Below, piece after piece: positions 9,001-46,324 of a stretch of DNA of 64,000 nucleotides. The stretch is taken from contig WFMF01000046.1 in NCBI GenBank assembly GCA_011033025.1, forward strand, positions 310,001-374,000, read 5' to 3'. Made by a program: the position numbers and the translations under genes. Every line of letters begins with the position of its first letter. Position 1 is the first letter of the stretch. Source of the DNA: Beroe forskalii (lineage: Eukaryota > Ctenophora > Nuda > Beroida > Beroidae). A model generated the notes under the pieces. It ran no database searches and was not told the origin of the DNA. It saw only the letters and a list, made by a program, of their open reading frames with translations.

Positions 9001-12000
9001 TCATTTCTGAGGCACCCAAGATCCGACATCGAAAACTTTGGCCGATTGAGCTGAAAATTTGCACGCCATCCATGGACGACCTAAAAAAGACATACCATAC
9101 TTCAGAATCCCGAAATCAGCCATTTTCTGTCTGTTATGGGGGGTTAAAATCGCGTTTTTGGCTTAAAAACTGCCTTTTTTCGCCCCTTATTGGGCGTAGA
9201 TGTCTCATGGGTGGTCAAATAGAAGTGTATCTGGTCATAAATTATGCGCCTGAAACCACTGAACCAATGATATTCGCCAGTTTTCCTTTGTTTTCCTGTA
9301 AAATCGAAAAACCCTATTTGTACCTCTCAAAACAGTGATCCAGGATGTTCTTCATTTCTGAGGCACCCAAGATCCGAAATCGAAAAACTTTGGCCGATTG
9401 AGCTGAAAATTTGCACGCCATCCATGGACGACCTAAGAAAGACATACCATACTTCAGAATCCCGAAATCAGCCATTTTCTGTCTGTTATGGGGGGTTAAA
9501 ATCGCGTTTTTGGCTTAAAAACTGCCTTTTTTCGCCCCTTATTGGGCGTAGATGTCTCATGGGTGGTCAAATAGAAGTGTATCTGGTCATAAATTATGCG
9601 CCTGAAACCACTGAACCAATGATATTCGCCAGTTTTCCTTTGTTTTCCTGTAAAATCGAAAAAACCCTATTTGTACCTCTCAAAACAGTGATCCAGGATG
9701 TTCTTCATTTCTGAGGCACCCAAGATCCGAAATCGAAAAACTTTGGCCGATTGAGCTGAAAATTTGCACGCCATCCATGGACGACCTAAGAAAGACATAC
9801 CATACTTCAGAATCCCGAAATCAGCCATTTTCTGTCTGTTATGGGGGGTTAAAATCGCGTTTTTTGGCTTAAAAACTGCCTTTTTCGCCCCTTATTGGGC
9901 GTAGATGTCTCATGGGTGGTCAAATAGAAGTGTATCTGGTCATAAATTATGCGCCTGAAACCACTGAACCAATGATATTCGCCAGTTTTCCTTTGTTTTC
10001 CTGTAAAATCGAAAAAACCCTATTTGTACCTCTCAAAACAGTGATCCAGGATGTTCTTCATTTCTGAGGCACCCAAGATCCGAAATCGAAAAACTTTGGC
10101 CGATTGAGCTGAAAATTTGCACGCCATCCATGGACGACCTAAGAAAGACATACCATACTTCAGAATCCCGAAATCAGCTATTTTCTGTCTGTTATGGGGG
10201 GTTGAAATCGCGTTTTTGGCTTAAAACTGCCTTTTTTCGCCCCTTATTGGGCGTAGATGTCTCATGGGTGGTCAAATAGAAGTGTATCTGGTCATAAATT
10301 ATGCGCCTGAAACCACTGAACCAATGATATTCGCCAGTTTTCCTTTGTTTTCCTGTAAAATCGAAAAACCCTATTTGTACCTCTCAAAACAGTGATCCAG
10401 GATGTTCTTCATTTCTGAGGCACCCAAGATCCGAAATCGAAAAACTTTGGCCGATTGAGCTGAAAATTTGCACGCCATCCATGGACGACCTAAGAAAGAC
10501 ATACCATACTTCAGAATCCCGAAATCAGCCATTTTCTGTCTGTTATGGGGGTTAAAATCGCGTTTTTGGCTTAAAACTGCCTTTTTCGCCCCTTATTGGG
10601 CGTAGATGTCTCATGGGTGGTCAAATAGAAGTGTATCTGGTCATAAATTATGCGCCTGAAACCACTGAACCAATGATATTCGCCAGTTTTCCTTTGTTTT
10701 CCTGTAAAATCGAAAAAACCCTATTTGTACCTCTCAAAACAGTGATCCAGGATGTTCTTCATTTCTGAGGCAACCAAGATCCGAAATCGAAAAACTTTGG
10801 CCGATTGAGCTGAAAATTTGCACGCCATCCATGGACGACCTAAGAAAGACATACCATACTTCAGAATCCCGAAATCAGCCATTTTCTGTCTGTTATGGGG
10901 GGTTGAAATCGCATTTTTGGGTTAAAAACTGCCTTTTTCGCCCCTTATTGGGCGTAGATGTCTCATGGGTGGTCAAATAGAAGTGTATCTGGTCATAAAT
11001 TATGCGCCTGAAACCACTGAACCAATGATATTCGCCAGTTTTCCTTTGTTTTCCTGTAAAATCGAAAAAACCCTATTTGTACCTCTCAAAACAGTGATCC
11101 AGGATGTTCTTCATTTCTGAGGCAACTAAGATCCGAAATCGAAAAACTTTGGCCGATTGAGCTGAAAATTTGCACGCCATCCATGGACGACCTAAGAAAG
11201 ACATACCATACTTCAGAATCCCGAAATCAGCCATTTTCTGTCTGTTATGGGGGGTTAAAATCGCGTTTTTGGCTTAAAAACTGCCTTTTTTCGCCCCTTA
11301 TTGGGCGTAGATGTCTCATGGGTGGTCAAATAGAAGTGTATCTGGTCATAAATTATGCGCCTGAAACCACTGAACCAATGATATTCGCCAGTTTTCCTTT
11401 GTTTTCCTGTAAAATCGAAAAAACCCTATTTGTACCTCTCAAAACAGTGATCCAGGATGTTCTTCATTTCTGAGGCACCCAAGATCCGAAATCGAAAAAC
11501 TTTGGCCGATTGAGCTGAAAATTTGCACGCCATCCATGGACGACCTAAGAAAGACATACCATACTTCAGAATCCCGAAATCAGCCATTTTCTGTCTGTTA
11601 TGGGGGGGTTAAAATCGCGTTTTTTGGCTTAAAAACTGCCTTTTTTCGCCCCTTATTGGGCGTAGATGTCTCATGGGTGGTCAAATAGAAGTGTATCTGG
11701 TCATAAATTATGCGCCTGAAACCACTGAACCAATGATATTCGCCAGTTTTCCTTTGTTTTCCTGTAAAATCGAAAAAAACCCTATTTGTACCTCTCAAAA
11801 CAGTGATCCAGGATGTTCTTCATTTCTGAGGCACCCAAGATCCGAAATCGAAAAACTTTGGCCGATTGAGCTGAAAATTTGCACGCCATCCATGGACGAC
11901 CTAAGAAAGACATACCATACTTCAGAATCCCGAAATCAGCCATTTTCTGTCTGTTATGGGGGTTAAAATCGCGTTTTTGGCTTAAAAACTGCCTTTTTCG

Positions 12001-13800
12001 CCCCTTATTGGGCGTAGATGTCTCATGGGTGGTCAAATAGAAGTGTATCTGGTCATAAATTATGCGCCTGAAACCACTGAACCAATGATATTCGCCAGTT
12101 TTCCTTTGTTTTCCTGTAAAATCGAAAAAACCCTATTTGTACCTCTCAAAACAGTGATCCAGGATGTTCTTCATTTCTGAGGCACCCAAGATCCGAAATC
12201 GAAAAACTTTGGCCGATTGAGCTGAAAATTTGCACGCCATCCATGGACGACCTAAGAAAGACATACCATACTTCAGAATCCCGAAATCAGCCATTTTCTG
12301 TCTGTTATGGGGGGTTAAAATCGCGTTTTTGGCTTAAAAACTGCCTTTTTCCTTGTATTGGGCGTAGATGTCTCATGGGTGGTCAAATAGAAGTGTATCT
12401 GGTCATAAATTATGCGCCTGAAACCACTGAACCAATGATATTCGCCAGTTTTCCTTTGTTTTCCGAAAAAACCCTATTTGTACCTCTCAAAACAGTGATC
12501 CAGGATGTTCTTCATTTCTGAGGCACCCAAGATCCGAAATCGAAAAAACTTTGGCCGATTGAGCTGAAAATTTGCACGCCATCCATGGACGACCTAAGAA
12601 AGACATACCATACTTCAGAATCCCGAAATCAGCCATTTTCTGTCTGTTGTGGGGGGTTAAAATCGCGTTTTTTGGCTTAAAACTGCCTTTTTCGCCCCTT
12701 ATTGGGCGTAGATGTCTCATGGGTGGTCAAATAGAAGTGTATCTGGTCATAAATTATGCGCCTGAAACCACTGAACCAATGATATTCGCCAGTTTTCCTT
12801 TGTTTTCCTGTAAAATCGAAAAAACCCTATTTGTACCTCTCAAAACAGTGATCCAGGATGTTCTTCATTTCTGAGGCACCCAAGATCCGAAATCGAAAAA
12901 CTTTGGCCGATTGAGGCTGAAAATTTGCACGCCATCCATGGACGACCTAAGAAAGACATACCATACTTCAGAATCCCGAAATCAGCCATTTTCTGTCTGT
13001 TATGGGGGTTCGTCAACGTTTTTGGCTTAAAAAACTGCCTTTTTTCGCCCTTATTGGGCGTAGATGTCTCATGGTGGTCAAATAGAAGTGTATCTGGTCA
13101 TAAATTATGCGCCTGAAACCACTGAACCAATGATATTCGCCAGATTTCCTTTGTTTTCCTGTAAAATCCAAAAAACCCTATTTTATCTTTCAAAACAGTG
13201 ATCCAGGATGTTCTTCATAAATGCACCCAAGATCTGAAATCGAAAAACTTTGGCCGATTGAGCTGAAAATTTGCACGCCATCCATGGACGACCTAAGAAA
13301 GACATACCATACTTCAGAATCCCGAAATCAGCCATTTTCTGTCTGTTATGGGGGTTAAAATCGCGTTTTTGGCTTAAAACTGCCTTTTTTCGCCCCTTAA
13401 TATGTGATGTCTCATGGGTGGTCAAATAGAAGTGTATTCAATTATGCCTGAAACCACTGAACCAATGATATTCGCCAGTTTTCCTTTGTTTTCCCGTAAA
13501 ATCGAAAAAAACCCTATTTGTCTCAAAAAAATCCAGATGTTCTTCAAAAGACCCTATTTGTAAAATTTTAATGCCATCCGCGATCGACCAAACAGAAAAT
13601 CAGCCATCCATGGGGTCCTTAAAATTAATGGGTGTAGATGTCTTCAACAGAAGTGTATCTGATATAAATTGCGCCTGAAACCACTGAACTTAATGCCAGT
13701 TTTCCTTTGTTTTCCTGTAAAATCGAAAAACTTATTTAACTCTCAAACAAAAGTCCAATGTCTTATCTATAAAGGTGTATACTACAAACATAACAAAATA
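1..13800 (+). repeat. satellite array, about 352-bp monomer, about 39 copies
   Basis: Head-to-tail monomers of 351-354 bp fill this block; for example the motif taaattatgcgcctgaaacc recurs at 1, 353 and 706. Copies are nearly identical and differ mainly in the length of G, C, A and T runs and in a cacccaag/caaccaag variant. That variant does not alternate regularly, so I see no higher-order repeat. The minus strand stays open for about 85 codons per monomer, but a length near 352 is not a multiple of three, so these frames do not continue from one monomer to the next. I do not believe it codes for protein. I see no obvious CENP-B box. A centromeric or heterochromatic role is possible but unproven. 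Confidence 0.95.
6600..7240 (+). repeat. scrambled satellite monomers
   Basis: Within the otherwise uniform array, this stretch contains pieces of the monomer in the wrong order, with internal deletions and small novel junctions. For example the segment ccatccatggacgacctaag appears twice within about 120 bp, and the frame around 7030-7110 mixes distant parts of the monomer. It is either a real rearranged patch or a low-quality consensus. Confidence 0.7.
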
Positions 13801-16682: not shown

Positions 16683-17886
16683 CATAAATTTGCACCTCCG
16701 ATACCCAAACTTACCAATGAATTAAGCCGAAAAACCCCTGAAAATAAAATTTTCCCCGGTTTTTTTTCTTTTCCCGTAAAATCGAAAAAAACCCCTTTGT
16801 ACCCTCTCAAAACAGTGATCCNNNNNNNNNNNNNNNNNNNNNNNNNNNNNNNNNNNNNNNNNNNNNNNNNNNNNNNNNNNNNNNNNNNNNNNNNNNNNNN
16901 NNNNNNNNNNNNNNNNNNNNNTTTCAGCTATTTGCAGCCATCCTGGAAACCAGAAAAATACCCCCTTTTTCCCAGGAAATTTCCTTTCGAAAAAAGCAAA
17001 AAAATTGCCTATTTCTGAGGCAACCAAGATCCGAAATCGAAAAACTTTGGCCGATTGAGCTGAAAATTTGCACGCCATCCATGGACGACCTAAGAAAGAC
17101 ATACCATACTTCAGAATCCCGAAATCAGCTATTTTCTGTCTGTTATGGGGGGTTGAAATCGCGTTTTTGGCTTAAAACTGCCTTTTTCGCCCCTTATTGG
17201 GCGTAGATGTCTCATGGGTGGTCAAATAGAAGTGTATCTGGTCATAAATTATGCGCCTGAAACCACTGAACCAATGATATTCGCCAGTTTTCCTTTGTTT
17301 TCCTGTAAAATCGAAAAAACCCTATTTGTACCTCTCAAAACAGTGATCCAGGATGTTCTTCATTTCTGAGGCAACCAAGATCCGAAATCGAAAAACTTTG
17401 GCCGATTGAGCTGAAAATTTGCACGCCATCCATGGACGACCTAAGAAAGACATACCATACTTCAGAATCCCGAAATCAGCTATTTTCTGTCTGTTATGGG
17501 GGGTTGAAATCGCGTTTTTGGCTTAAAACTGCCTTTTTCGCCCCTTATTGGGCGTAGATGTCTCATGGGTGGTCAAATAGAAGTGTATCTGGTCATAAAT
17601 TATGCGCCTGAAACCACTGAACCAATGATATTCGCCAGTTTTCCTTTGTTTTCCTGTAAAATCGAAAAAACCCTATTTGTACCTCTCAAAACAGTGATCC
17701 AGGATGTTCTTCATTTCTGAGGCAACCAAGATCCGAAATCGAAAAACTTTGGCCGATTGAGCTGAAAATTTGCACGCCATCCATGGACGACCTAAGAAAG
17801 ACATACCATACTTCAGAATCCCGAAATCAGCTATTTTCTGTCTGTTATGGGGGGTTGAAATCGCGTTTTTTGGCTTAAAACTGCAC
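16683..17886 (+). repeat. satellite block containing an assembly gap
   Basis: About three monomers in plus orientation. The first, flanking the gap, is badly degraded, with doubled homopolymers and odd substitutions at 16683-16821 and 16922-17010. The later ones are clean. The block ends at cttaaaactgca, where retrotransposon sequence begins. Confidence 0.9.
16822..16921. other. assembly gap (100 N)
   Basis: Exactly 100 Ns, the usual placeholder for a gap of unknown length. The amount of satellite missing here cannot be known from this sequence. Confidence 0.99.
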
Positions 17887-25540: not shown

Positions 25541-26511
25541 ACCCACGGTGGGGCTGGCATGTGCCGAGATAAATAAATAAAATTAATACATTAACAATAA
25601 TAAATAAGACCACAAGCACATTTGAGATGCCAAAAGGCATGGCTCGCCGCAGAAAGTGGCCTGATTGCCAATGTCACGTCAACACACACTGAAATTAGCA
25701 CTCCAAATCGGAAAAACAAAACACACTCAAAAAGTTCCAGATGGGGACTTGGTGCTCGGGGTTGTTCAGCAAGTCCCATCCGGCGCGAGGCAGGGCAAGA
25801 GTTGAAGTACTGGCCGGATCCAGGGAAGTCCGAGGAGAAGACGGGGGGATTGAAGTTGACGAAGGGGGCGTGGATGTTGATGCTGGTGTCCGAGGTGGAG
25901 GAGTTGGTCCTCTTTCCCTGCTGCAAACTGCACCATTGCTGATGTAGTGATACTGTCCTGGGTCACTCCGTATCTTTTCTCGCAGCTGTGAAACAAGTCC
26001 CTTCCTTTCTTCTCTTTCTTCACGAGTTCTGTCGGGAGATATGTACACTCTGCTGAAGCGTTCCTTTGCGTTCTTTTCCACATTTCAGGGCTAATGCTGC
26101 TGTTTCATTTGCTGTGAAATGTTGCCTTTTACCGGGCGCGTATCCTGTCCTGACAGCCCCAACACGGTGGCAGTCTTTAACCAAGAGCCGTGCCGTAGAA
26201 CAGCTGACTGGAGCACATCTTTAACTGTATCTGCACAACTTCATTGGCTGACCTCAAGTCCAAACAGCATCACCGCCTCCTTCTGTCATCATCCTTCACT
26301 GCCGACTTTACTGCTGCCTTCACTTGTGCTCGCTGTAATCCTTTCCTCACACCCTTTCTTCTCACTACGTCACTGAAGCTTCGATTGCCTCTTCACTGTC
26401 GTCTGCACCGCTTCCATTTTGCTCTGTCTGCTCTTCAAGAGTTTATCTTGAGTTCAACTGGTTTGGTGTAACATCACCCTTTTTCTGCCCCAAGACATTG
26501 CAATTGAGGTT
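25541..26511 (-). mobile_element. retrotransposon ORF1-like gene, copy B, with 3' tail
   Basis: Minus strand. It carries the same ORF1-like protein as copy A (VYISPDRTREEREERKGLV, YHYISNGAVCS, Pro/Ser-rich tail) but without the fold-back insertion, so it shows the pre-insertion sequence ccattttgctctg. Frameshifts interrupt it near 26080 and 26250. Downstream in coding order lies a tail with an A/T-rich run and GCCAGCCCCACCGTGGG at about 25545-25562. Related tails occur near 56.16 and 56.85 kb. Satellite abuts both sides, plus oriented on the left and minus oriented on the right. Confidence 0.75.
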
Positions 26512-27841
26512 TTGATTTTACAGGAAAACAAAGGAAAACTGGCGAATATCATTGGTTCAGTGGTTTCAGGCGCATAATTTATGACCAGATACACTTCTAT
26601 TTGACCACCATGAGACATCTACGCCCAATAAGGGGCGAAAAAGGCAGTTTTAAGCCAAAAACGCGATTTTAACCCCCATAACAGACAGAAAATGGCTGAT
26701 TTCGGGATTCTGAAGTATGGTATGTCTTTCTTAGGTCGTCCATGGATGGCGTGCAAATTTTCAGCTCAATCGGCCAAAGTTTTTCGATTTCGGATCTTGG
26801 TTGCCTCAGAAATGAAGAACATCCTGGATCACTGTTTTGAGAGGTACAAATAGGGTTTTTGGATTTTACAGGAAAACAAAGAAAACTGGCGAATATCATT
26901 GGTTCAGTGGTTTCAGGCGCATAATTTATGACCAGATACACTTCTATTTGACCACCCATGAGACATCTACGCCCAATAAGGGGCGAAAAATTTTAAGCCG
27001 AAAACGCGATTTCAACCCCCATAACAGACAGAAAATAGCTGATTTCAGGATTCTGAAGTATGGTATGTCTTTCTTAGGTCGTCCATGGATGGCGTGCAAA
27101 TTTTCAGCTCAATCGGCCAAAGTTTTTCGATTTCGGATCTTGGTTGCCTCAGAAATGAAGAACATCCTGGATCACTGTTTTGAGAGAGTACAAATAGGGT
27201 TTTTCGATTTTACAGGAAAACAAAGGAAAACTGGCGAATATCATTGGTTCAGTGGTTTCAGGCGCATAATTTATGACCAGATACACTTCTATTTGACCAC
27301 CCATGAGACATCTACGCCCAATAAGGGGCGAAAAAGGCAGTTTTAAGCCAAAAACGCGATTTCAACCCCCATAACAGACAGAAAATAGCTGATTTCGGGA
27401 TTCTGAAGTATGGTATGTCTTTCTTAGGTCGTCCATGGATGGCGTGCAAATTTTCAGCTCAATCGGCCAAAGTTTTTCGATTTCGGATCTTGGTTGCCTC
27501 AGAAATGAAGAACATCCTGGATCACTGTTTTGAGAGGTACAAATAGGGTTTTTTCGATTTTACAGGAAAACAAAGGAAAACTGGCGAATATCATTGGTTC
27601 AGTGGTTTCAGGCGCATAATTTATGACCAGATACACTTCTATTTGACCACCCATGAGACATCTACGCCCAATAAGGGGCGAAAAAAGGCAGTTTTTAAGC
27701 CAAAAAACGCGATTTCAACCCCCCATAACAGACAGAAAATAGCTGATTTCGGGATTCTGAAGTATGGTATGTCTTTCTTAGGTCGTCCATGGATGGCGTG
27801 CAAATTTTCAGCTCAATCGGCCAAAGTTTTTCGATTTCGGA
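26512..27841 (-). repeat. satellite block in inverted orientation, about four monomers
   Basis: The same 352-bp satellite, now on the minus strand relative to 1-25.5 kb. It is cut off at tttcgatttcgga, where a GGTGGAACC minisatellite begins. Confidence 0.95.
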
Positions 27842-33583: not shown

Positions 33584-34328
33584 ACGATCCTGGATCACTG
33601 TTTTGAGAGGTACAAATAGGGTTTTTTCGATTTTACAGGAAAACAAAGGAAAACTGGCGAATATCATTGGTTCAGTGGTTTCAGGCGCATAATTTATGAC
33701 CAGATACACTTCTATTTGACCACCCATAGGACATCTACGCCCAATAAAGGGGCGAAAAAAGGCAGTTTTAAGCCAAAAACGCGATTTCAACCCCCACAAC
33801 AGACAGAAAATAGCTGATTTCGGGATTCTGAAGTATGGTATGTCTTTCTTAGGTCGTCCATGGATGGCGTGCAAATTTTCAGCTCAATCGGCCAAAGTTT
33901 TTCGATTTCGGATCTTGGTTGCCTCAGAAATGAAGAACATCCTGGATCACTGTTTTGAGAGGTACAAATAGGGTTTTTCGATTTTACAGGAAAACAAAGG
34001 AAAACTGGCGAATATCATTGGTTCAGTGGTTTTGTGGCGCATAATTTATGACCAGATACACTTCTATTTGACCACCCATGAGACATCTACGCCCAATAAG
34101 GGGCGAAAAAGGCAGTTTTAAGCCAAAAACGCGATTTCAACCCCCTTAACAGACAGAAAATAGCTGATTTCGGGATTCTGAAGTATGGTATGTCTTTCTT
34201 AGTCGTCCATGGATGGCGTGCAAATTTTCAGCTCAATCGGCCAAAGTTTTCGATTTCGGATCTTGGTTGCCTCAGAAATGAAGAACATCCTGGATCACTT
34301 TTGAGAGAGTACAAATAGGGTTTTCGAT
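33584..34328 (-). repeat. satellite block, about two monomers, inverted
   Basis: Minus-oriented 352-bp satellite, from atcctggatcactg to gggttttcgata. It directly truncates the zinc-finger gene at its 3' end. Confidence 0.94.
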
Positions 34329-34359: not shown

Positions 34360-35418
34360 TCACATTTGAATGGCCTTTCGTAAGAATGAATCTTGCACAA
34401 AAGCCACATGATGAACCAAATCATTTTCTGAAGTGAATTCTTTTAGACAAATTTGGCACTTGTAAGATTTTCCTGAGGTGACCTCCTTATCAATGTGTAT
34501 CAAAGCATGCCTCTTGAAGGAAAATGGATATTTGAAATGTTTCCCACATATTGAACATATAAACTGTTTTTCATCAGAATGTTTGATTTTGTGCCGTTTC
34601 AAAAGGTAAGGCGTAACAAATGCTTTGCAACATTGATCACACTTATGCAATTTTTGATCTAAGTGAAGGTTTCCATTGTGATGAATCAAATCATGTTTTG
34701 AGGGGAATCTGCTTAGACAAATTTTGCATTTGTAAGATGAGACCTTCCCATCATTGTTTCGGAAATGAGTCAGATTTGCTGCAGTTGAGTCACTCTTTGA
34801 ACTGATGACATCATTTATAGTAGAATTGTTATCTTCAACTTTTACGTTGTGATGAGTATCATCGCTACATGTATAAATCAATTGTTCCGTATTTGTAAGA
34901 TTATCTGACAATTCTGCAGAAGAGTCTGCTTGAGCAGCATCAGGGGTTTCTACCAGATCGAAATCAGCATGAAAAAGGTTTTCACTCTCTAATGGCTCGT
35001 CTTTAATGACATAGCTGTTAATTTCAACTTTTATTTTGTGATGAATATCATTGCTTATCAAGTTATTAGGAATCAATTGTTCAGAATTTGTAAGTCTATC
35101 AGACAATTCTGCAACAGAGTATGCTTGAAGTTGAGCAGCATCAGGGTTTTCTAACAGATGTAAAAAATTCTCACTCTCAAAAGGCTCATCTTTAATAACA
35201 GCATCAGCAGGAACAAATTCGAAATGAAGACAGTTTTCACTCTCAAATGACTCATCTTTAATAATTACATTGTGAGTATCAGATGTGGAGTTATTCTCAT
35301 CAGATGGCAAGCTGAGCTGACATTGATGTGCTGATTCATTTTCCATAATAATCTTGTGTTGCTCCAAGCTACATTCACTGAATTGAACTGAAGTTGGAAC
35401 TTGGAGTGAATTTTGTAC
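34360..35418 (-). CDS. C2H2 zinc-finger protein, 3' end broken by satellite
   Basis: The first clear Met is at 35346. The frame stays open upstream to a splice acceptor (aattag) at 35419, so the exon may begin earlier. The acidic N-terminal half repeats IKDE(S/P)xESEN three times and also has IKVE and VKVE; these match the SUMO-attachment consensus (hydrophobic-K-x-E). Fingers start at about residues 205 (CKICLSRF), 234 (CDQCCKAF) and 262 (CSICGKHF), with a fourth (CQICLKEF) at about 295 that lacks its last His. Just past it, another frame reads HSYERPFKCDL, a finger linker. A frameshift therefore ended the protein early at 34360, and the gene runs straight into satellite at about 34329. It is likely a damaged transcription-factor-like gene. 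A partial copy is at 39005-39503. Confidence 0.75.
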   Translation of the reverse strand, partial: VQNSLQVPTSVQFSECSLEQHKIIMENESAHQCQLSLPSDENNSTSDTHNVIIKDESFESENCLHFEFVPADAVIKDEPFESENFLHLLENPDAAQLQAYSVAELSDRLTNSEQLIPNNLISNDIHHKIKVEINSYVIKDEPLESENLFHADFDLVETPDAAQADSSAELSDNLTNTEQLIYTCSDDTHHNVKVEDNNSTINDVISSKSDSTAANLTHFRNNDGKVSSYKCKICLSRFPSKHDLIHHNGNLHLDQKLHKCDQCCKAFVTPYLLKRHKIKHSDEKQFICSICGKHFKYPFSFKRHALIHIDKEVTSGKSYKCQICLKEFTSENDLVHHVAFVQDSFLRKAIQM

Positions 35419-35742
35419 CTAATTCAATTTCACATTCCAAATAATGCATCTTATTATATTCATTCAATATAGTAGACGATTAAAACATACCTCCAATTGG
35501 TAGACAAATAAATATTGCGGCATACAGTAATTGAAGGTTTTAAGAACAAGCCGCATTCCTATCACATCATGACAGATTTCGGAAAATAAACCATGACGCA
35601 TAAGAAAATGAAATCAATTGGATAATGGATAAAACATTCGCTTGAAACAAAACATCATTGATAGCTAAAAATATTCATCAGCATTATAACATCTGTATCA
35701 AAGGATTGAATTAGTCAAAATAAAATCAAAATGTTACAATTT

Positions 35743-37410
35743 CTAGTAAGTCGGGAAATTTGGGTCTATATGGGCAGTCCATCCAAAGAGACCTCCGATA
35801 ACATCCTTAAAACAGTGCTCAGGATACCTTTCCTTGAGATGCTGCACCACAACCTGTGAGTTAACTCCGGCCCTACATAGCACATATACCGGGTCCCTTG
35901 TTTCTTTGGGTACCACCTGGTCTAGATCCACTTTGCCTGCCATCAGCGGGTAAAATGGCACATTCACCGAGTTCTCCAGGGCACACAGCCCGAACTCCAC
36001 TGCAGGTCGGACATCTATAAGATGCCTGTAGGACTGCGAGTGAAGTTCCTGGCATGTTATCCTTTCGTCTTCTGCACTCGCGTCCTTGAACACTTTGTCC
36101 TTCCCACTCCCACAGAACCTGACATAATCCACTGGAGCGGTGACAGTTGGCGAGTCTCCGCAGACCACACACTCACTCCGCCTAGGTCGGAGCTGGACAG
36201 TCCGCATGATACCGTCCCAGGGAGAGACTAACATCAGCTTGCCGGAGTATGCGGACTCCCCCGTGGCAATGATCTTGATAGCCTCGGCAGCTTGGAGAGA
36301 CCCCACGACACCGGTGATAGGACCCAGAACACCGGCTTCCATGCAGTTTAGGGTGGCGTCAGGGTCAGGGGGAGACGGGTTGATGCACCGGTAACAGGGG
36401 CCTCCTTTGTAGTGGTATGTCGACACCTGGAGAAGGGTTACTGAATTAGGAGACTCGGGGTACAGCCACTCTCAAGGTCTCAAAATCATATACATCCTGC
36501 TTCGCACATAGAGATCAGTAATCGATCATGCTGGTTTCTATTTATTCACGATATTCATGATTAAAACCACCGTTATCTCCCACTTAGTTCGTTAAACAAA
36601 AGAACACATCCCCGGTTGAACCCTTCCTCACCTGGCCCTCCATGCGGAGAGCAGCCCCAGACACCAGTATCTTGTCTAGCAAGACACAGCAGTCATTGAC
36701 CAGGTACCGCGTGGTTGCGTTGTCCAGGCAGTCCATTATGACGTCATACTCCTTTATAATGCCCATCGCGTTCTCCGCATTCAACTCCACCTAGAGAAGT
36801 GAGACAAGTGAGATAATGCTGATAAAAGGTGATCAGATAGTTCTAAAGTTGACCCTAAAGTTAGTGGATCAGTGGTCCTTGGCACTTTGTTATTCAGTAA
36901 TTAAGCAAACATGGACCCTGGATCCTGGACTTATCTGTCTATTCAAGCTAACTCTATCTAATGTTGCTAATGTGCAGCGTTCTCCTCAAGTCAAATTACA
37001 CTGCTTAGTGCTTACCTTGTGGGTTATGAAGTTGACGAGGGGGTTAAGGTTACGTAGCTTGGCGAGGGCTGATTCCACTTTGGGGACGCCAACCGTATCT
37101 TGGCCGTGTAACACCTTGTGAAAATGGGACAGATGGAATGTGATTAACTGGATTCAAGAAGTTGCTTCTCTTCTCCGAACCAAAAAGCTTTTGGATTTGG
37201 GACTTTTGGATATTTAAAACGTCGCTTTATTCTCAAAATGCAATAATGATACTTATTAGTTGATTACTTACTTATAACAGTACTAACCTGTCGGTGTAGG
37301 TTGGAGGTGTCCACCACATCGTCATCCAGCAGTCCGAGGGTTCCCACTCCAGCAGCAGCCAGGTACTGCGAGCACGGGCACCCCAGCCCACCCATACCAA
37401 TGATCAGAAC
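35743..37410 (-). CDS. MOCS3: MOCS3 copy 1: adenylyltransferase and sulfurtransferase, exons without 5' part
   Basis: Exons in coding order: 37288-37410 ([16 protein letters not shown], the ATP-binding GxGxxG; then [13 protein letters not shown]), 37016-37114, 36632-36790 ([19 protein letters not shown]) and 35743-36426. All junctions are GT-AG and in frame. The last exon has zinc ligands CYRC and [14 protein letters not shown] with the conserved Cys, and a rhodanese domain with active loop CRAGVNSQ, ending DPNFPTY. Family knowledge: this cytosolic E1-like enzyme adenylates MOCS2A and URM1, then passes sulfur to them for molybdenum cofactor synthesis and tRNA thiolation. The upstream exon needed for RYGRQ... 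is missing. The region upstream is a 55-bp repeat array and then a zinc-finger fragment. It is either 5'-truncated or spliced from the exon at 45.6 kb. Confidence 0.88.
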
Positions 37411-39004
37411 CTGGAATGTACATTGTATAACCCTCACCCAGCCCGCCTAAACCAATAATCAGAACCTGGAGATGGAATGCACATTGTATAACCCCACCCA
37501 GCCCGCCCATACCAATAATCAGAACCTGGAATGTACATTGTATAACCCTCACCCAGCCCGCCAATACCAATAATCAGAACCTGGAATGTACATTGTATAA
37601 CCCTCACCCCAGCCCGCCCATACCAATAATCAGAACCTGGAATGTACATTGTATAACCCTCACCCAGCCCGCCCATACCAATAATCAGAACCTGGAATGT
37701 ACATTGTATAACCCTCACCCAGCCCGCCCATACCAATAATCAGAACCTGGAATGTACATTGTATAACCCTCACCCAGCTCGCCCATACCAATAATCAGAA
37801 CCTGGAATGTACATTGTATAACCCTTACCCAGCCCGCCCATACCAATAATCAGAACCTGGAATGCACATTGTATAACCCTCACCCAGCCCGCCCATACCA
37901 ATAATCAGAACCTGGAATGTACATTGTATAACCCTCACCCAGCCCGCCCATACCAATAATCAGAACCTGGAATGTACATTGTATAACCCTCACCCAGCCC
38001 GCCCATACCAATAATCAGAACCTGGAATGTACATTGTATAACCCTCACCCAGCCGCCCATACCAAAAATCAGAACCTGGAATGTACATTTGTATAACCCT
38101 CACTCAGCCCGCCCATACCAATAATCAGAACCTGGAATGTACATTGTATAACCCTCACTCAGCCCGCCCATATCAATATTCAGAACCTGGAATGTACTGT
38201 ATAACCTCACCCAGCCCGCCCATACCAATAATCAGAACCTGGAATGTACATTGTATAACCCTCACCCAGCCCGCCCATACCAATAATCAGAACCTGGAAT
38301 GTACATTGTATAACCCTCACTCAGCCCGCCCATACCAATAATCAGAACCTGGAATGTACATTGTATAACCCTCACCCAGCCCGCCCATACCAATAATCAG
38401 AACCTGGAATGTACATTGTATAACCCTCACTCAGCCCGCCCATACCAATAATCAGAACCTGGAATGTACATTGTATAACCCTCACCCAGCCCGCCCATAC
38501 CAATAATCAGAACCTGGAATGTACATTGTATAACCCTCACCCAGCCCGCCCATACCAATAATCAGAACCTGGAATGTACATTGTATAACCCTTACCCAGC
38601 CCGCCCATACCAATAATCAGAACCTGGAATGCACATTGTATAACCCTCACCCAGCCCGCCCATACCAATAATCAGAACCTGGAATGTACATTGTATAACC
38701 CTCACCCAGCCCGCCCATACCAATAATCAGAACCTGGAATGTACATTGTATAACCCTCACCCAGCCCGCCCATACCAATAATCAGAACCTGGAATGTACA
38801 TTGTATAACCCTCACCCAGCCCATACCAATAATCAGAACCTGGAATGTACATTTGTATAACCCTCACCCAGCCCCGTACCAATAATCAGAACCTGAGTGT
38901 ACATTGTATAACCCTTACCCAGCCCGCCCATACCAATAATCAGAACCTGGAATGTACATTGTATAGCCCTTACCCAGCCCACTCATCTCAATAGTCAGAA
39001 CCTG
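37411..39004 (-). repeat. 55-bp tandem repeat made from a MOCS3 splice-site/exon boundary, about 29 copies
   Basis: The unit on the minus strand is an acceptor (tgtacattccag), then 28 nt identical or nearly so to the start of MOCS3 exon 37288-37410 (encoding VLIIGMGGL), then GTGAGG or GTAAGG, a good splice donor. The first unit includes the real acceptor of that exon. The spacing is 55 bp (for example 37623 to 37678), which is not a multiple of three. A few units are shortened near 38200 and 38820-38890. Confidence 0.93.
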
Positions 39005-39503
39005 GAGTATAAATCAATTGTTCCGTATTTGTAAGATTATCTGACAATTCTGCAGAAGAGTCTGCTTGAGCAGCATCAGGGGTTTCTACCAGATCGAAAT
39101 CAGCATGAAAAAGGTTTTTACTCTCAAATGGCTCATCTTTAATGACATAGCTGGTACTTTCAACTTTTATTTCGTGATGAATATTGTTGCTTATCAAGTT
39201 ATTAGGAATCAATTGTTCAGAATTTGTAAGTCTATCAGATGATTCTGCAACAGAGTATGCTTGAAGTTGAGCAGCATCAGGGTTTTCTAACAGATGAAAA
39301 AAATTCTCACTCTCAAAAGGCTCATCTTTAATAACAGCATCAGCAGGAACAAATTCGAAATGAAGACAGTTTTCACTCTCAAATGACTCATCTTTAATAA
39401 TTACATTGTGAGTATCAGATGTGGAGTTATTCTCATCAGATGGCAAGCTGAGCTGACATTGATGTGCTGATTCATTTTCCATAATAATCTTGTGTTGCTC
39501 CAA
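39005..39503 (-). pseudogene. duplicated N-terminal part of the zinc-finger gene
   Basis: About 160 codons nearly identical to the N-terminal half of the gene at 34360-35418, including all three IKDE-x-ESEN motifs. The copy stops at EQLIYT, where the 55-bp array begins. It has no zinc fingers. The 5' flank, including the acceptor at about 39555, is also duplicated. It marks the breakpoint of a tandem duplication of about 4.14 kb. Confidence 0.88.
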
Positions 39504-39880
39504 GCTACATTCACTGAATTGAACTGAAGTTGGAACTTTGAGTGAATTTTGTACCTAATTCAATTTCACATTCCAAATAATGCATCTTATTATATTCATT
39601 CAATATAGTAGACGATTAAAACATACTTCCAATTGGTAGACAAATAAATATTGCGGCATACAGTAATTGAAGGTTTTAAGCACAAGCCACATTTTTATCA
39701 CATCACGACAGATTTCGGAAAAATAAACCATAACGCATAAGAAAATTAAATCAATTGGATAATGGATAAAACATTCGCTTGAAACAAAACATCATTGATA
39801 GCTAAAAATATTCATCAGCATTATAACATCTGTATCAAAGGATTGAATTAGTCAAAATTTTAGTCAAAATGTTACAATTT

Positions 39881-42800
39881 CTAGTAAGTCGGGAAATTTG
39901 GGTCTATATGGGCAGTCCATCCAAAGAGACCTCCGATAACATCCTTAAAACAGTGCTCAGGATACTTTTCCTTAAGATGCTGCACAACAACCTGTGAGTT
40001 GACCCCGGCCCTACATAGCACATATACCGGGTCACGTGTTTCTTTGGGTACTACCTTGTCTAGATCCACTTTGCCTGCCATCAGCGGGTAAAATGGCACA
40101 TTCACCGAGTTCTCCAGGGCACACAGCCCGAACTCCACTGCAGGCCGGACGTCTATAAGATTCCTGTAGGACTGCGAGTGAAGTTCCTGGCATGTTATCC
40201 TTTCGTCTTCTGCACTCGCGTCCTTGAACACCTTGTCCTTCCCACTCCCACAGAACCTGACATAATCCACTGGAGCGGTGACAGTGGGTGAGTCTCCGCA
40301 GACCACACACTCACTCCGCCTAGGTCGGAGCTGGACAGTCCGCATGATACCGTCCCAGGGACAGACTAACATCAGTTTACCGGAGTATGCGGACTCCCCC
40401 GTGGCAATGATCTTGATAGCCTCAGCAGCTTGGAGAGACCCCACTACACCCGTTATAGGGCCCAGAACACCGGCTTCCATGCAGTTGAGGGTGGCGTCAG
40501 GGTCAGGGGGAGAAGGGTTGATGCACCGGTAACAGGGGCCTCCTTTGTAGTGGTATGTGGACACCTGGAGAAGGGAATTAGGAGACTCTGTGTAGTAACA
40601 CTCTAAAGGTCTAAGAATCATATACATCCTACTCTACATGTAGAGATCAGTAATAGATCATGCTGGTTTCTATTTCTTCGCGATATTCATGACTAAAACC
40701 ACCGTTATCTGCCACTTAGTTAGTTAAGTAACAGGAAATCCCCCGTCGAACCCCTCCTCACCTGGCCCTCCATGCGGAGAGCAGCCCCAGACACCAGTAT
40801 CTTGTCGAGCAAGACACAGCAGTCATTGACCAGGTACCGCGTGGTGGCGTTGTCCAGGCAGTCCATTATGACGTCATACTCCTTTATAATGCCCATTGCG
40901 TTCTCGGCGTTCAACTCCACCTAAGATACAAGTAGAGACAAGTGAGAAAATGCAGATAAAAGGTGGTCGAAAGTGGATCAGTGGTCCTTGGTACTTTGGT
41001 ATTCAGGAATGGCTAACAAGGACCCTGGACCATGTAACCTATCTGTCTCTTCAAGCTAACTCTATCTAATGTTGGTAATCTGCAGCGTTATTCACAAGTC
41101 AAATTACACTGCTTCGTGTTACATTGTGGGTTATGAAGTTGACGAGAGGGTTTAGGTTACGTAGCTTGGCGAGGGCTGATTCCACTTTGGGGACGCCAAC
41201 CGTATCTTGGCCGTGCAACACCTTGTGAAAATAGGACAGATGGAATGTGATTAACTGGATTCAAGAAGTCGCTTCACTTCTCCGAACCAAAAAGCTTTTG
41301 GATTTGGGGCTTTAGGTTATTCAAAACGTCGCTTTATTCTCAAACTGCAATAATGATACTTATAAGTTGATTACTTACTTATAACTTTATAACAATACTA
41401 ACCTGTCGGTGTAAGTTGGATGTGTCCACCACATCGTCATCCAGCAGCCCGAGGGTTCCCACTCCTGCAGCAGCCAGGTACTGCGAACACGGGCACCCCA
41501 GCCCGCCCATACCAATAATCAGAACCTGGATTGTACATTGTATAACCCTCACCCAGCCCACTCATACCAATAATTAGAACCTGGAATGTACATTGTATAA
41601 CCCTCACCCAGCCCGCCCATACCAATAATCAGAACCTGGAATGTACATTGTATAACCCTTACCCAGCCCGCCCATACCAATAATCAGAACCTGGAATGTA
41701 TATTGTATAACCCTCACCCAGCCCGCCCATACCAATAATTAGAACCTGGAATGTACATTGTATAACCCTCACCCAGCCCGCCCATACCAATAATTAGAAC
41801 CTGGAATGTACATTGTATAACCCTCACCCAGCCCGCCCATACCAATAATCAGAACCTGGAATGTACATTGTATAACCCTTACCCAGCCCGCCCATACCAA
41901 TAATCAGAACCTGGAATGTACATTGTATAACCCTCACCCAGCCCGCCCATACCAATAATCAGAACCTGGAATGTACATTGTATAACCCTCACCCAGCCCG
42001 ACCATACCAATAATCAGAACCTGGAATGTACATTGTATAACCCTCACCCAGCCCGCCCATACCAATAATCAGAACCTGGAATGTACATTGTATAACCCTT
42101 ACCCAGCCCACTCATACCAATAATCAGAACCTGGAATGTACATTGTATAACCCTCACCCAGCCCGCCCATACCAATAATCAGAACCTGGAATGTACATTG
42201 TATAACCCTCACCCAGCCCACTCATCTCAATGATCAGAAACTGGAATGTAGTACATTGTACATTTTACAAGACGTGTACAAGGTACATTGTACATTGTTC
42301 ATCGTACAATTAGTGTGAAATGTACACTGTGCACTTAGTATGAGATGTACACCTATTGTGTAAGCTGTGCACTGTGTACACTGTACACTCTAAGGATGCT
42401 AGAGGTGACTACTTAACCACACCACAGTCCCAAACCCACTCATCCCGATGCAAATGATCAGAACCTGAAGGCTGAAATGTACTCTGTACACACAGCGTAA
42501 AATGTACATTGTACATGATGCTGTGTATACATTGTACGGGCATAGATCAGAACAGCAACGCCACGAAGACGCCACGGTAGCGCCACGGTGACGCCACGAG
42601 GACGCCACTGCGGCGCCACGGTGAAGCCACGAAGACGCCACGATGAAGCCACGACGACGCCATGGCAGTGCCACGGTGACGCCACGGTAGTGCCACTGTG
42701 AAGCCACGAGGACGCCACGAGGAAGCCACCTAGGCGCCGGGGCAGTGCCATGGTGAAGCCACTGTGATGCCACGAGAAGGCCACTGTGACGCTGGCCTGG

Positions 42801-45665
42801 AAACGCCACGAGAAAGCCACGGTAGAGCCACCGTGAAGCCACGACAGGGGACCTCCTCCGATCTGTCTGTTGATGGTTGCCTTGCCTCTCCCCCGTCGTC
42901 CGAGTCTTGTAGTTGCTCTCCTGGTACTGTTGGAGGGCACTGATCTCCTGGTACTGTTGGAGGGCACTGCGTCATCCTGGGCCGAACTGGTTCCTGCGAC
43001 CTCTCGTAGGGGATCGAACTCTGCATGGAATCTCATTCGGGTTCTGACGGTTCTGGAACGGGTGATAGAAGTGGAAGTCTTGGGCATGGTAGAGTTGAAT
43101 TGATAGGAGATTGATTGTAACAATACAGCTTGAATGATATTGCCTTTGGTCGGGCGCTTTATATTTGTCCTAATTGGCTCGAATTGCACTATGCATTTAC
43201 CGATTGATAGGATCATATAACTGTTGACACCCTGATAACGAGAGCTGAATGCGAGATGCATTATACCTTATCTACCGTCATGTGACACTCGTCTCATGAC
43301 TGTTGAGTCATGAGGCATACGCGCGTGTCACATGACGACACGCAAAGCTGCAAAGGTATGCATCTAGCATTCGGCTCTTGTTATTAGGGCACCCTGGCGA
43401 CATGTGACCCGGTGCAAGGTGCATGTTGTCCCTGCGCTTGCAAATGTTGCTATGTAGGCATATATAAACTGTGATAATTCGTGTGGCTCAAACAGAAGGG
43501 CCTCCTGTCCTCTCAACACAGAGCATCGCTTCTCTTCAGCAGAGACTTACCTAACCTCCTGAATCCTCTCATTTGAATTGTGTAGAATCATTGTGGAACC
43601 ATTTATAATCAGTGTTATTGAATGTAGTAAATAGTTTATCGTATATCATTATTACTAATTATCGTAAAAGCGTGTTTTAATTCATAATCACAACATACTT
43701 ACATAATAAAATAATTGCAACTGTCTAAGATGACTAATCGTAAGTACTTTAATATAATACTAACTTGATAAGAACAGCGGTATGATAACGTTACTACAGA
43801 AAACTGAATAATCTAAAGCAAATGAACAAATTTACAGCATCTGTCCTCTGCTGATCAGCACCCTCTTCTTGGTCTGCAGTGTGTTGTCCCTCATGGCTGC
43901 CACGCACTTCCTGGAAAGGTCCTCCTGATGGATCTTGCTGCCTTGTGCGTCCCTTGCCATCCTCTGAACGATGTTGTTGAAGGCGTCTTCGTCCACCAGC
44001 ATCAGCTCCGCTATAGTTCTCTTCCTCTGGAATGTGCGTCTGGACATCCCCACTTCCGCGATGGCTTGATCCTGAGATCTAGGATGATCTGGGTCCTGGG
44101 TGAGGGAGAGAACCTTCTGATAGACCTCCAGGGCAGCATGAGTTGAAGTAGGGCGGTGGTTCCGAGTAGGCACGACCACAGGAGCAGGAGGGGGGTTCTG
44201 AATCTGAGCGGCCGGTCTGCGGTTCTGGTGCAGTCTCATTGTAGCAGTCTGGATGGTGGGGGCTGAGGAGGAGGGCAGAAGGGTTGCTGGTAACTGGAGG
44301 GGCTCTGAAGTTTGCCTTGTGCACGGCACAATGTCTGAAAGTGACGGAGGTGCCAAGGTCGCCGTCAGGGGAGTCGAAGGAAGTTGTAGTTCTCTACAGA
44401 GCAGTCTTCACAGGAGATGATAGACGGTCGATCTGGAATCAAGGAGCTGCTGTTGTTGGTGGAGGAAGACATCAGGATTCTGTCGTAGTAGATGTAGTTA
44501 TATCGTTGGAGTAGATACAATTGAAACAATGCGATACCTTACATGGCAGGTAGCGCATTTTATACTGACGTTAAGAGGTTTCTAAGAGGTTGTCGTCATC
44601 ATGACGTTTCAATCAATGGGGTCACATCATGGCTCACAACTCGCCCACAATACACATAGGTAGATCATATACCATGACTCACATATCAATGTTTCATGAC
44701 ACCCATGTCGACCTTGAGATCCGGTAAGGTGACGGGTCAGATGATGAAACAGCATCGAAATTATCCCTGGCACAACAGTGGCGCTGTCGTGGCTTCACGG
44801 TGGCTCTACCGTGGCTTTCTCGTGGCGTTTCCAGGCCAGCGTCACAGTGGCCTTCTCGTGGCATCACGGTGGCTTCACCATGGCACTGCCCCGGCGCCTA
44901 GGTGGCTTCCTCGTGGCGTCCTCGTGGCTTCACAGTGGCACTACCGTGGCGTCACCGTGGCACTGCCATGGCGTCGTCGTGGCTTCATCGTGGCGTCTTC
45001 GTGGCTTCACCGTGGCGCCGCAGTGGCGTCCTCGTGGCGTCACCGTGGCGTTACCGTGGCGTCACCGTGGCGCTACCGTGGCGTCTTCTTGGCGTTGCTG
45101 TTCTGATCTTTGCCCCATTGTACTATTGTACAAATGTTAAAAATTGACAACCACACGGCTACGTGTCAATGTATGTTACATACAACCCTCCCAATCCAAT
45201 GTTTTCAGAAATTCAGGTTATATCGTACATTTCCGTTTGTGTGTAATAAAACAATTAAGAATGTTCCAGGTCGAGCAAGCGATGAAAATATCCAATATCC
45301 ATGCCCATAAATTTCTGTTGTTGGCATATGTTATTCGATCAACAGTTCGGATTAGGTAATCAAATTATGGTATGCCGTTTTAGCTTCTCGAATTCTGGAC
45401 AATAAAAAAGTTTCAAATATACACAATACAGTATTAGCAAACAACCACGATAGGATATTCGAGTGACTGCTATCCCATATCTCAGTCACTCCTCAGCCCT
45501 CAAATTCCCACCTCATTAACTCCCCGGCCCTCAGTAGCTCAGTCATTCATCTCCTCATTAACCCCCAGTCCTCACCTTGCTATTTTTGAGTGCCTCTTGC
45601 CCCGGACGCCCTATATCATCCAGAATGAGTTGTCTGCCGTACCTTGACATCTCCTCATTAGTTAG
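39881..45665 (-). CDS. MOCS3: MOCS3 copy 2, with upstream exon
   Basis: Exons in coding order: 45576-45665, 41403-41525, 41123-41221, 40762-40920 and 39881-40564. Phases agree throughout. The domains are as in copy 1: E1-like ATP-binding and adenylation part, CYRC/CVVC zinc site, and rhodanese with CRAGVNSQ. The last exon differs from copy 1 at only four residues (S to C, H to N, Q to K, R to K). The donor after exon 41123-41221 reads AAT|GTAACA where copy 1 has AAG|GTAAGC, so splicing may be weaker. The 4-kb intron after 45576 holds a 55-bp array and a transposon-like element. A first coding exon upstream of 45665 is expected but was not found. This is the best candidate for the working gene. 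Confidence 0.85.
41526..42240 (-). repeat. 55-bp splice-site-derived tandem repeat, second array, about 13 copies
   Basis: The same unit as at 37411-39004, in the matching position next to MOCS3 copy 2. A diverged extra copy lies near 42420-42475 (encoding [12 protein letters not shown]). Confidence 0.93.
42241..42530 (+). repeat. gtacattgtac-rich simple sequence
   Basis: Overlapping tgtacattgtac and gtgtacactg palindromic words between the 55-bp array and the mobile element. No gene. Confidence 0.6.
42458..43087 (-). CDS. hypothetical protein of the element, about 209 aa
   Basis: Starts [20 protein letters not shown] at 43087. The first about 85 residues are basic, with a tandem (V)PSNSTRR repeat. 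The remainder is encoded by the terminal minisatellite (repeating SWRxRGxxVA), so its C-terminal half may not be real protein. A TATA box (atataaag) lies about 70 nt upstream at 43157-43164. I do not recognise the family. Confidence 0.4.
   Translation of the reverse strand: MPKTSTSITRSRTVRTRMRFHAEFDPLREVAGTSSAQDDAVPSNSTRRSVPSNSTRRATTRLGRRGRGKATINRQIGGGPLSWLHGGSTVAFSWRFQASVTVAFSWHHSGFTMALPRRLGGFLVASSWLHSGTTVASPWHCHGVVVASSWRLRGFTVAPQWRPRGVTVALPWRLRGVAVLIYARTMYTQHHVQCTFYAVCTEYISAFRF
43157..43164 (-). promoter_or_regulatory. TATA box of element ORF 1
   Basis: The minus strand reads aaatATAAAGCGCCC, about 70 nt before the ATG at 43087. It shares the word TATAAA(R)(N)GCGC with the second box at 44558. 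Confidence 0.5.
43461..43467 (+). promoter_or_regulatory. possible TATA box on plus strand
   Basis: tatataaac, followed by a C/T-rich leader-like stretch (ctcctgtcctctcaacacag). No plus-strand ORF follows, so its role is unclear. Confidence 0.25.
43832..44472 (-). CDS. hypothetical HTH-like protein of the element (frameshifted or spliced)
   Basis: From an ATG at 44472 a short frame reads [20 protein letters not shown] and stops at 44365. A second frame, open from about 44414 to 43832, continues with a Pro/Gln-rich part and then [31 protein letters not shown] and [14 protein letters not shown], ending ISRGQML. The [16 protein letters not shown] stretch resembles a helix-turn-helix DNA-binding unit. 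There is no ATG in the second frame at its start, so a frameshift, small intron or sequencing error is implied. A TATA box lies 86 nt upstream. I do not recognise the family. Confidence 0.5.
44558..44564 (-). promoter_or_regulatory. TATA box of element ORF 2
   Basis: The minus strand reads cagTATAAAATGCGC, 86 nt before the ATG at 44472, with no ATG in between in that frame. Confidence 0.5.
45576..45665 (-). CDS. MOCS3: MOCS3 upstream exon
   Basis: The minus strand reads [20 protein letters not shown], then [10 protein letters not shown], and a GTGAG donor at 45571-45575. This is the segment (R-Y-x-R-Q-L...G) that precedes the ATP-binding loop in all MOCS3/MoeB/ThiF-type E1 enzymes, and its phase fits exon 41403-41525. 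The acceptor is probably gactcag at 45666-45667, but a site about 6 nt further upstream is also possible. Confidence 0.82.
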
Positions 45666-45667
45666 CT

Positions 45668-46324
45668 GAGTCTTTACCACATTAGTAGATGGAGGGTGGG
45701 GCCATTAGCGGCAGCCATGAGGGCTAGGGCTGGGACAGACATTGGTTATATTGGGCAGCCACTGACAATTTGGTAAGGATTTCACACACTAAACTCGGCG
45801 ATGATAAAGTAATAAGAATGGACCAATAACATGACGTCATCAAAACGCCGAATTTATTGAGGGCAGTACCAGAGGCACCCACCAACTGAAAGTGTCCTGC
45901 GTCACATCCACACTCCATGTACTGAAAGTTTGAAGTTGAGAAAAGAGATAACGTCACCGCCCTATGTGAATTCAAATTGTGGGAAGAAGCCAATACCGAC
46001 TTAAATTATGCGAACGGAAATACGGATCATTTGGGCTTGTAGCATGAGATACATAAGAAAGTGCCTGGAGATGTTATAAAACTGCGGGAAAATTAGAAAA
46101 TTTATAAGCTTCAAAAGTTCAAAAAAACTTCGTCACTGTACACAGAAAATAGTGGTTTTGCACCGGGAAGGGTAGGAAGGGAAAGGATTAGTTTGGATTC
46201 AATTGGGTCAGCGACATTTAACAAAGAAGACGCAGGACGTACGGAAATTAATAATTCGAGAACTGAAAAACTACAAATCACAAGACTTCATAAACCCTCT
46301 TATCTTCCAAGTTCCTTATCTTCC
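45668..46324. other. no gene recognised; expected region for MOCS3 exon 1
   Basis: Spacer between the MOCS3 upstream exon and the 3' end of the next minus-strand gene. Neither strand gives a convincing MOCS3 N-terminus, whose family members start with a variable coiled segment that is hard to spot. Confidence 0.5.

Follow-up and report, generated by a model that had tools for sequence, protein, structure and literature searches.

Tandem arrays of an intron end and an exon start ahead of two MOCS3/UBA4 gene bodies, probably in a ctenophore

The stretch of DNA analysed here (the window; 64,000 nucleotides, C536:310001-374000, in an assembly of 216 Mb and 1,134 contigs) carries a MOCS3/UBA4 gene on its minus strand. 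The gene begins with exon 1 and an intron of about 4 kb, and continues with exons 2A-5A and then exons 2B-5B, which are here called body A and body B. Directly before each of the two exons 2 stands an array of a 55-bp minisatellite (arrays A and B), whose unit is made of the end of the preceding intron and the start of exon 2. The positions of all features are collected in Table 1. Introns 2-4 are short (173-225 nt).

The identification as MOCS3/UBA4 is based on the predicted protein, in which an E1-like (ThiF) domain is followed by a rhodanese domain. Pfam PF00899 (ThiF) and PF00581 (rhodanese) are both found in the exon-5 translations of both bodies, and the best solved match to the translation of exon 1 joined to body B is Uba4 (6yub), covering the E1-like and the rhodanese parts with an E value of 1.3e-79. 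The ThiF profile has 16 matches in the genome, of which six are the two bodies described here and ten lie elsewhere.

Table 1. Features of the MOCS3/UBA4 locus, with positions in the window
Feature	Position	Strand	Remarks
'Exon 1' of MOCS3/UBA4	45576..45665	-	Donor AAG|GTGAGG; 5' end provisional
Diverged lone copy of the exon start	42445..42464	-	In intron 1, outside the array; 3 mismatches in 20 nt
Array A, 13 units of 55 bp	41526..42250	-	Unit of 27 nt from the intron end and 28 nt from the exon start
True exon 2A, 123 nt	41403..41525	-	Acceptor TACAATCCAG, one base unlike the acceptor of the units
Exon 3A	41123..41221	-	Donor CACAAT|GTAACA, weak: 2.2 against 11.1 at exon 3B (general consensus matrix)
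Exon 4A	40762..40920	-	
Exon 5A	39881..40564	-	Codes for the end of the ThiF domain and for the rhodanese domain, up to the stop codon
Zinc-finger gene, N-terminal part, truncated copy	39007..39554	-	Joined at its left end to the outer edge of array B
Array B, 29 units of 51-60 bp	37411..39006	-	21 of 29 units exactly 55 bp
True exon 2B, 123 nt	37288..37410	-	
Exon 3B	37016..37114	-	Donor CACAAG|GTAAGC
Exon 4B	36632..36790	-	
Exon 5B	35743..36426	-	
Zinc-finger gene, portion common to both duplicate copies	34871..35418	-	

Tandem Repeats Finder (TRF) reports a period of 55 bp at 37382-39006 (29.6 copies) and at 41497-42250 (13.7 copies). Divided at the minus-strand acceptors, the arrays give 29 units ahead of exon 2B and 13 ahead of exon 2A, which bears out the first-pass annotation of this DNA, where about 29 and 13 units were counted, each with an acceptor, an exon start and a donor-like site. 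The same annotation placed them in a single span, 37411..42240. Both arrays are indeed there, but the span is not one array: it runs through array B, the truncated zinc-finger copy, exons 5A-2A and array A.

On the coding strand, the unit consists of 27 nt of intron end (GTGAGGGTTATACAATGTACATTCCAG) followed by the first 28 nt of exon 2. The acceptor TACATTCCAG occurs unchanged in all 13 units of array A and in 24 of the 29 units of array B (37/42 overall), and exon 2B shares the acceptor of most units. The exon part is 28 nt long in 13/13 and 25/29 units respectively (38/42), the remaining four having 24, 25, 27 and 29 nt. It is followed by GTGAGG or GTAAGG in 13/13 A units and 28/29 B units (41/42; the exception has GTGGGG), and in four B units the donor is preceded by TGA instead of TGG. 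The true exons 2A and 2B, at the ends of the arrays, are open and in frame.

The unit was copied from the gene in which it lies, as had been proposed. Its consensus is identical to the start of exon 2A at 29/29 nt and differs from exon 2B at 2/29, and its exon part encodes the conserved VLIIGxGGLG loop, which aligns with that of solved Uba4. This match to the solved loop means that the exon is the original and that the array derives from it. The sequence is also confined to the locus. A 20-nt piece of the exon start has 43 matches in the window at up to 3 mismatches, where shuffled sequences lead one to expect 0.02. A 32-nt piece of the unit was compared with the 216-Mb assembly, again at up to 3 mismatches, and 40/40 of the listed matches (counts that are lower bounds) fall within the arrays and exons of this locus, and the reversed control has none. 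A related repeat unlinked to MOCS3, which according to the first-pass annotation would have spoken against this origin, is not seen outside the locus among these listed matches.

The array units evolve without a coding constraint of their own. In 40 units (the two outermost were dropped, and differences are counted per unit, not per event), the differences of the exon part from the consensus comprise 5 silent and 11 amino-acid-changing ones, in line with the 24:57 that random change would give, while the true exons 2A and 2B are separated by 7 silent substitutions and no changing ones. The outermost units of the two arrays have four variants in common, and in array B a pattern of four units repeats 14 units apart; both are signs of growth by block exchange. 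With the outermost units again dropped, the mean difference between units is 3.5% within array A, 2.4% within array B and 3.1% between the two. This is lower than the 5.8-13.8% seen between the introns of bodies A and B, and the arrays thus turn over faster than they diverge. The two array lengths, 13 and 29 units, are both present in one assembly, possibly as duplicates or haplotypes. RNA folding gave no sign of a special structure in a three-unit stretch, all 200 shuffles of which fold at least as well. The lone copy of the exon start in intron 1 is presumably older than the units of the arrays.

Array B stands before a second, intact copy of exons 2-5, which the first-pass annotation overlooked. 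The duplication pairs 34871-37410 with 39007-41525, which match at 93% when the arrays are masked. At the junction (39006/39007), the outer edge of array B is joined to the middle of a zinc-finger exon, with almost no shared sequence. The only run of N in the window, at 16822-16921, is far from it. Over exons 2-5, the two bodies differ at 5/354 residues; 36 of the differences between them are silent and 6 changing (dS 0.155, dN 0.0075). Had one body been unconstrained throughout, some 66 changing differences should have accumulated, on the assumption of a dN/dS of 0.05 for the other body. Downstream, the copies of the zinc-finger fragment differ at 12/546 sites (3/108 silent, 9/438 changing) and the spacer at 11/324. 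In total, 95 of about 821 silent and intron sites differ in the gene body, compared to 23/870 downstream sites, coding and spacer together (Fisher P 2.6e-13). Because the downstream part is far less diverged, the two bodies may have existed as divergent alleles until a recent duplication, or they may be two haplotypes side by side. A genome search found no second copy of exon 1. There is no exon-5 DNA match outside the locus, exon 5 being present only in these two copies, and hence no second MOCS3 gene was found elsewhere by this search, although the ten other ThiF matches were not classified.

On the basis of these observations, we infer the following order of events. The boundary segment (27 nt of intron end and 28 nt of exon 2) would have been tandemly duplicated within the intron, and unequal exchange or slippage would have expanded the array to tens of copies, with the true exon remaining as its last unit. 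The outer edge of the array would then have become the breakpoint of a duplication that copied the array, exons 2-5 and part of the adjoining zinc-finger gene.

The first-pass annotation knew of no described case with this arrangement, a view that cannot be kept. Lancelet 'mirages' are minisatellites across an intron-exon boundary, among them some in which an intron's 3' end is repeated in tandem together with the 5' part of the exon after it, as here (PMC3087553, PMC3902484). They are known in Adh, in the globins BflGb6 and BflGb9 and in troponin C, with similar repeats in PGBD5, and these two papers report that they do not disturb splicing, which speaks against the first-pass suggestion that the units may lower functional MOCS3 mRNA. 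In BflGb6, the 3' end of the intron and the 5' part of exon 2 are duplicated, with AG/GT signals in many units; two haplotypes have 6 and 3 units, and reverse-transcription polymerase chain reaction (RT-PCR) suggests regular splicing (PMC3087553). The MOCS3 arrays resemble the mirages in being a tandem repeat across an intron-exon boundary of their own gene, with the unit composed as in BflGb6, in keeping the AG/GT signals in most units, and in that the authentic exon is kept and the units at the boundary escape homogenisation. They differ in size, with 13 and 29 units of about 55 bp compared to the 6 or 3 units of 150-160 bp in BflGb6 and units of 10-72 bp in Adh3. They differ also in that array and exons 2-5 are present twice, and that the host is probably a ctenophore.

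Two human cases are related. The minisatellite of G1P3/IFI6 provides multiple splice donor sites (Turri et al. 1995), and like the arrays described here it multiplies a splice site of its own gene at an exon edge. It does so on the donor side, with units that are used as alternative donors, whereas the MOCS3 arrays are on the acceptor side and their sites are potential ones. Genes in human segmental duplications contain variable internal tandem repeats at exon-intron boundaries, mostly minisatellites (PMC2812944). These resemble the present case in being boundary repeats in duplicated genes, but they average 30 bp and 4 copies, and give rise to introns or to longer exons. In a search of open-access literature, the titles and abstract openings listed (15 of 31 papers) included no report of boundary arrays in ctenophores. 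The MOCS3 arrays thus belong to a known kind; what is new is the host, probably a ctenophore, the size of the arrays, and the presence of a further case in this genome, at a myosin exon, described below.

The consequences for the reading frame follow directly from the unit lengths. It had been predicted that use of a 28-nt micro-exon would shift the frame. This is correct for inclusion of a single unit between exon 1 and the adjoining body in 13/13 A units and 27/29 B units (40/42), and when a unit is entered and read through, the frame is broken in 42/42. It is not correct for the two B units with exon parts of 24 and 27 nt, which preserve the frame on inclusion. None of the 78 pairs or 286 triples of A units stays open. 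Since inclusion and read-through mostly break the frame, a correct mRNA needs the last acceptor, and we consider it most likely that this is how correct mRNA is made. The last acceptor is the only one attached to a full exon (123 nt, with its own downstream donor), and exon definition would favour it, while the 28-nt pieces and their 27-nt spacers would be too small for good recognition. Occasional use of a unit would give mostly frame-shifted mRNA, which would be lost. In our judgement the arrays are thus probably a passive minisatellite of the mirage kind, beyond which the last acceptor is chosen by exon definition.

A number of observations weigh against this reading. Splice sites were scored using general consensus frequencies, not a matrix specific to this genome, and all scores given here and in Table 1 are relative to that matrix. 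The common unit acceptor scores 3.8, which is equal to that of exon 2B and higher than that of exon 2A (1.5). The common unit donor scores 8.4, a value reached by just 1/209 of the GT sites of intron 1 outside the arrays, compared to 8.5 for the real exon 2 donor. Most units are thus not obviously crippled as splice sites. The two frame-preserving B units count on the same side, as do the combinations of B units that stay open (24/406 pairs and 46/3,654 triples). The argument from small spacers covers neighbouring units only, and skipping units leaves a longer intron. Finally, the case for normal splicing would rest on precedent, and the precedent has two sides, as the units of lancelet mirages could be used as cryptic sites (PMC3087553). 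The first-pass annotation had proposed that poor acceptor scores, together with a lack of RNA junctions into any unit, would make this an ordinary minisatellite. The common acceptor is mediocre in this comparison (its score is reached by 30/211 AG sites elsewhere in intron 1), and five B donors are weaker than the rest (four at 4.6 and one at 6.3).

Alternatively, the arrays might be a block of poison exons, in which regulated inclusion of units leads to a premature stop and the length of the array tunes the amount of MOCS3. The strength of the common acceptor and donor, comparable to those of exon 2, and the 40/42 inclusions that break the frame would be expected of such a block. We nevertheless regard it as improbable, given that the exon parts of the units are under no constraint, that lancelet mirages are reported without disturbance of splicing (PMC3087553, PMC3902484), and that the 27-nt spacers between adjacent units are far below the length of introns 2-4. 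The idea that the units are an unrelated minisatellite or transposon fragment, resembling the exon by chance, has almost no probability left. Tandem repeats are certainly abundant (5,275 of 81,789 sampled bases outside the window), but a chance origin is contradicted by the complete identity of the consensus to the start of exon 2A, by the conservation of the loop across the protein family, and by the listed genome matches, 0/40 of which are outside the locus.

The alternatives for the second copy are of a different nature. Exons 2B-5B and array B could be the other haplotype, placed adjacent by the assembler, and not a real tandem duplication. This is the most serious of the alternatives, although we lean against it. 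Both bodies are intact, and their ratio of silent to changing differences is as for two working alleles; the uneven divergence of gene body and downstream sites points the same way, and one ctenophore is on record with a combined heterozygosity of about 3.2% for single-nucleotide polymorphisms (SNPs) and indels (PMC8527503). However, the sole run of N is not at the junction, the junction has almost no shared sequence, so that some read should cross it, and a silent divergence of 0.155 is high for alleles. This explanation bears on the second copy alone, and the mirage explanation for the arrays can stand beside it. It is also conceivable, though unlikely, that body B is expressed through the shared exon 1, or by spliced-leader trans-splicing onto the array acceptors, so that two MOCS3 proteins are made. 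This would fit the strong constraint on both bodies, the normal donor of exon 3B beside the weak donor of exon 3A, and the finding that in one ctenophore a trans-spliced leader is present on 56% or more of the mRNAs (PMC8527503). Against it, the constraint may predate the duplication if the bodies were divergent alleles, the duplicate appears much younger in its downstream part, and the host is a ctenophore only in all probability; we make no claim of function for body B. A bolder proposal combines several of these elements. In a genome with dense minisatellites and probably common spliced-leader trans-splicing, boundary arrays would be working decoys, the length of the array setting the share of MOCS3 pre-mRNA that is wasted on units that break the frame, and the array before the headless body would supply acceptors that join it to exon 1 or to a leader, such that one start exon feeds two bodies. 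We consider this very unlikely, and continue to prefer the passive mirage.

Other exon edges in the genome were then compared. Edges are here the ends of profile matches and not mapped exon ends, and were taken from 40 loci (30 of 78 myosin matches and 10 of 16 ThiF matches, the six at the MOCS3 locus being dropped), which after merging are the 81,789 bases mentioned above, and from 20 more myosin matches. An enrichment of arrays at exon edges was rejected: 11/119 edges have an array in the edge zone, compared to 401/3,873 controls (10.4%).

One of the 11 is a second boundary array (L034 1661-1935; C225:1033074-1033348), with a 34-bp unit before a myosin exon. The unit combines an intron end with CAG and with 11 nt similar to the start of the exon, and there are seven acceptors of the CAG|TT type, the true one among them. 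Another of the 11 (L047 1663-1710; C785:21206-21253) is placed 3' on a match to a myosin exon, at its end, and has 2.2 copies of the 22-bp unit ATAGGTGGGTTGTTTTATACCC. This unit includes ATAG|GTGGGT, which resembles a donor; with an AG following the array, a 44-nt intron could arise from two copies. Four of the arrays viewed by eye (L032, L037, L052 and L054) are wholly on the intron side. Two long arrays with 16-bp units (L052 1659-2518 and L032 1696-1967) end about 10-20 nt upstream of myosin acceptors. Within 114 kb around the MOCS3 locus, no second boundary array was recognised by eye, although frames at array edges were not searched against families. Boundary arrays look like the product of a minisatellite-rich genome, formed when an array happens to start at an exon edge.

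The probable nature of the host can be judged from a mitochondrial contig of the same assembly (C1134), analysed over the first 10,000 of its 13,339 bp. It contains cox1 and has a G+C content of 17.4%; ARAGORN finds 0 transfer RNAs (tRNAs) in this part, and all 10 listed frames of at least 80 codons are on one strand. Ctenophore mitochondrial genomes are described as AT-rich, with no tRNA genes, genes on one strand, and atp6 and atp8 absent (PMC5924465), and the contig resembles them in the first three respects. At its full length it is larger than five ctenophore mitochondrial genomes, which measure 9,961-11,574 bp (PMC5924465). The same stretch of reading frame occurs twice in it (L025 4311-4691 and 7546-8649).

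Some further features of the locus may be added. Upstream of the first MOCS3 exon there is a possible start codon at 45716-45718 (ATGGCTGCC), out of frame with the exon, and within the exon there is an in-frame ATG at 45648-45650. Intron 1 contains a putative DNA transposon at 42538-45115, with inverted ends that are 98.6% alike over 289 bp and made of 11-bp-like repeats, and a flanking 8-bp direct repeat, CATTGTAC. A frame inside it (43832-44356) has a Pfam CCDC106 match under the curated cut-off. Elsewhere in the window, tandem repeats of 350-352 bp form blocks at 1-13521, 17011-17884, 26510-27841 and 33587-34328, the largest with 38 copies and extending leftward past the start of the window. 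Judged by eye, they look like one satellite family.

No new mechanism is needed for any of these arrays or for the features of the duplication. If the assembly is right at the junction, the edge of an array has served as the breakpoint of a duplication at the level of the gene. The arrays also provide a natural test of how the spliceosome picks the right acceptor among dozens of near-identical ones upstream. With two cases in one genome, boundary minisatellites are probably extended from the lancelets to a far-removed animal phylum.

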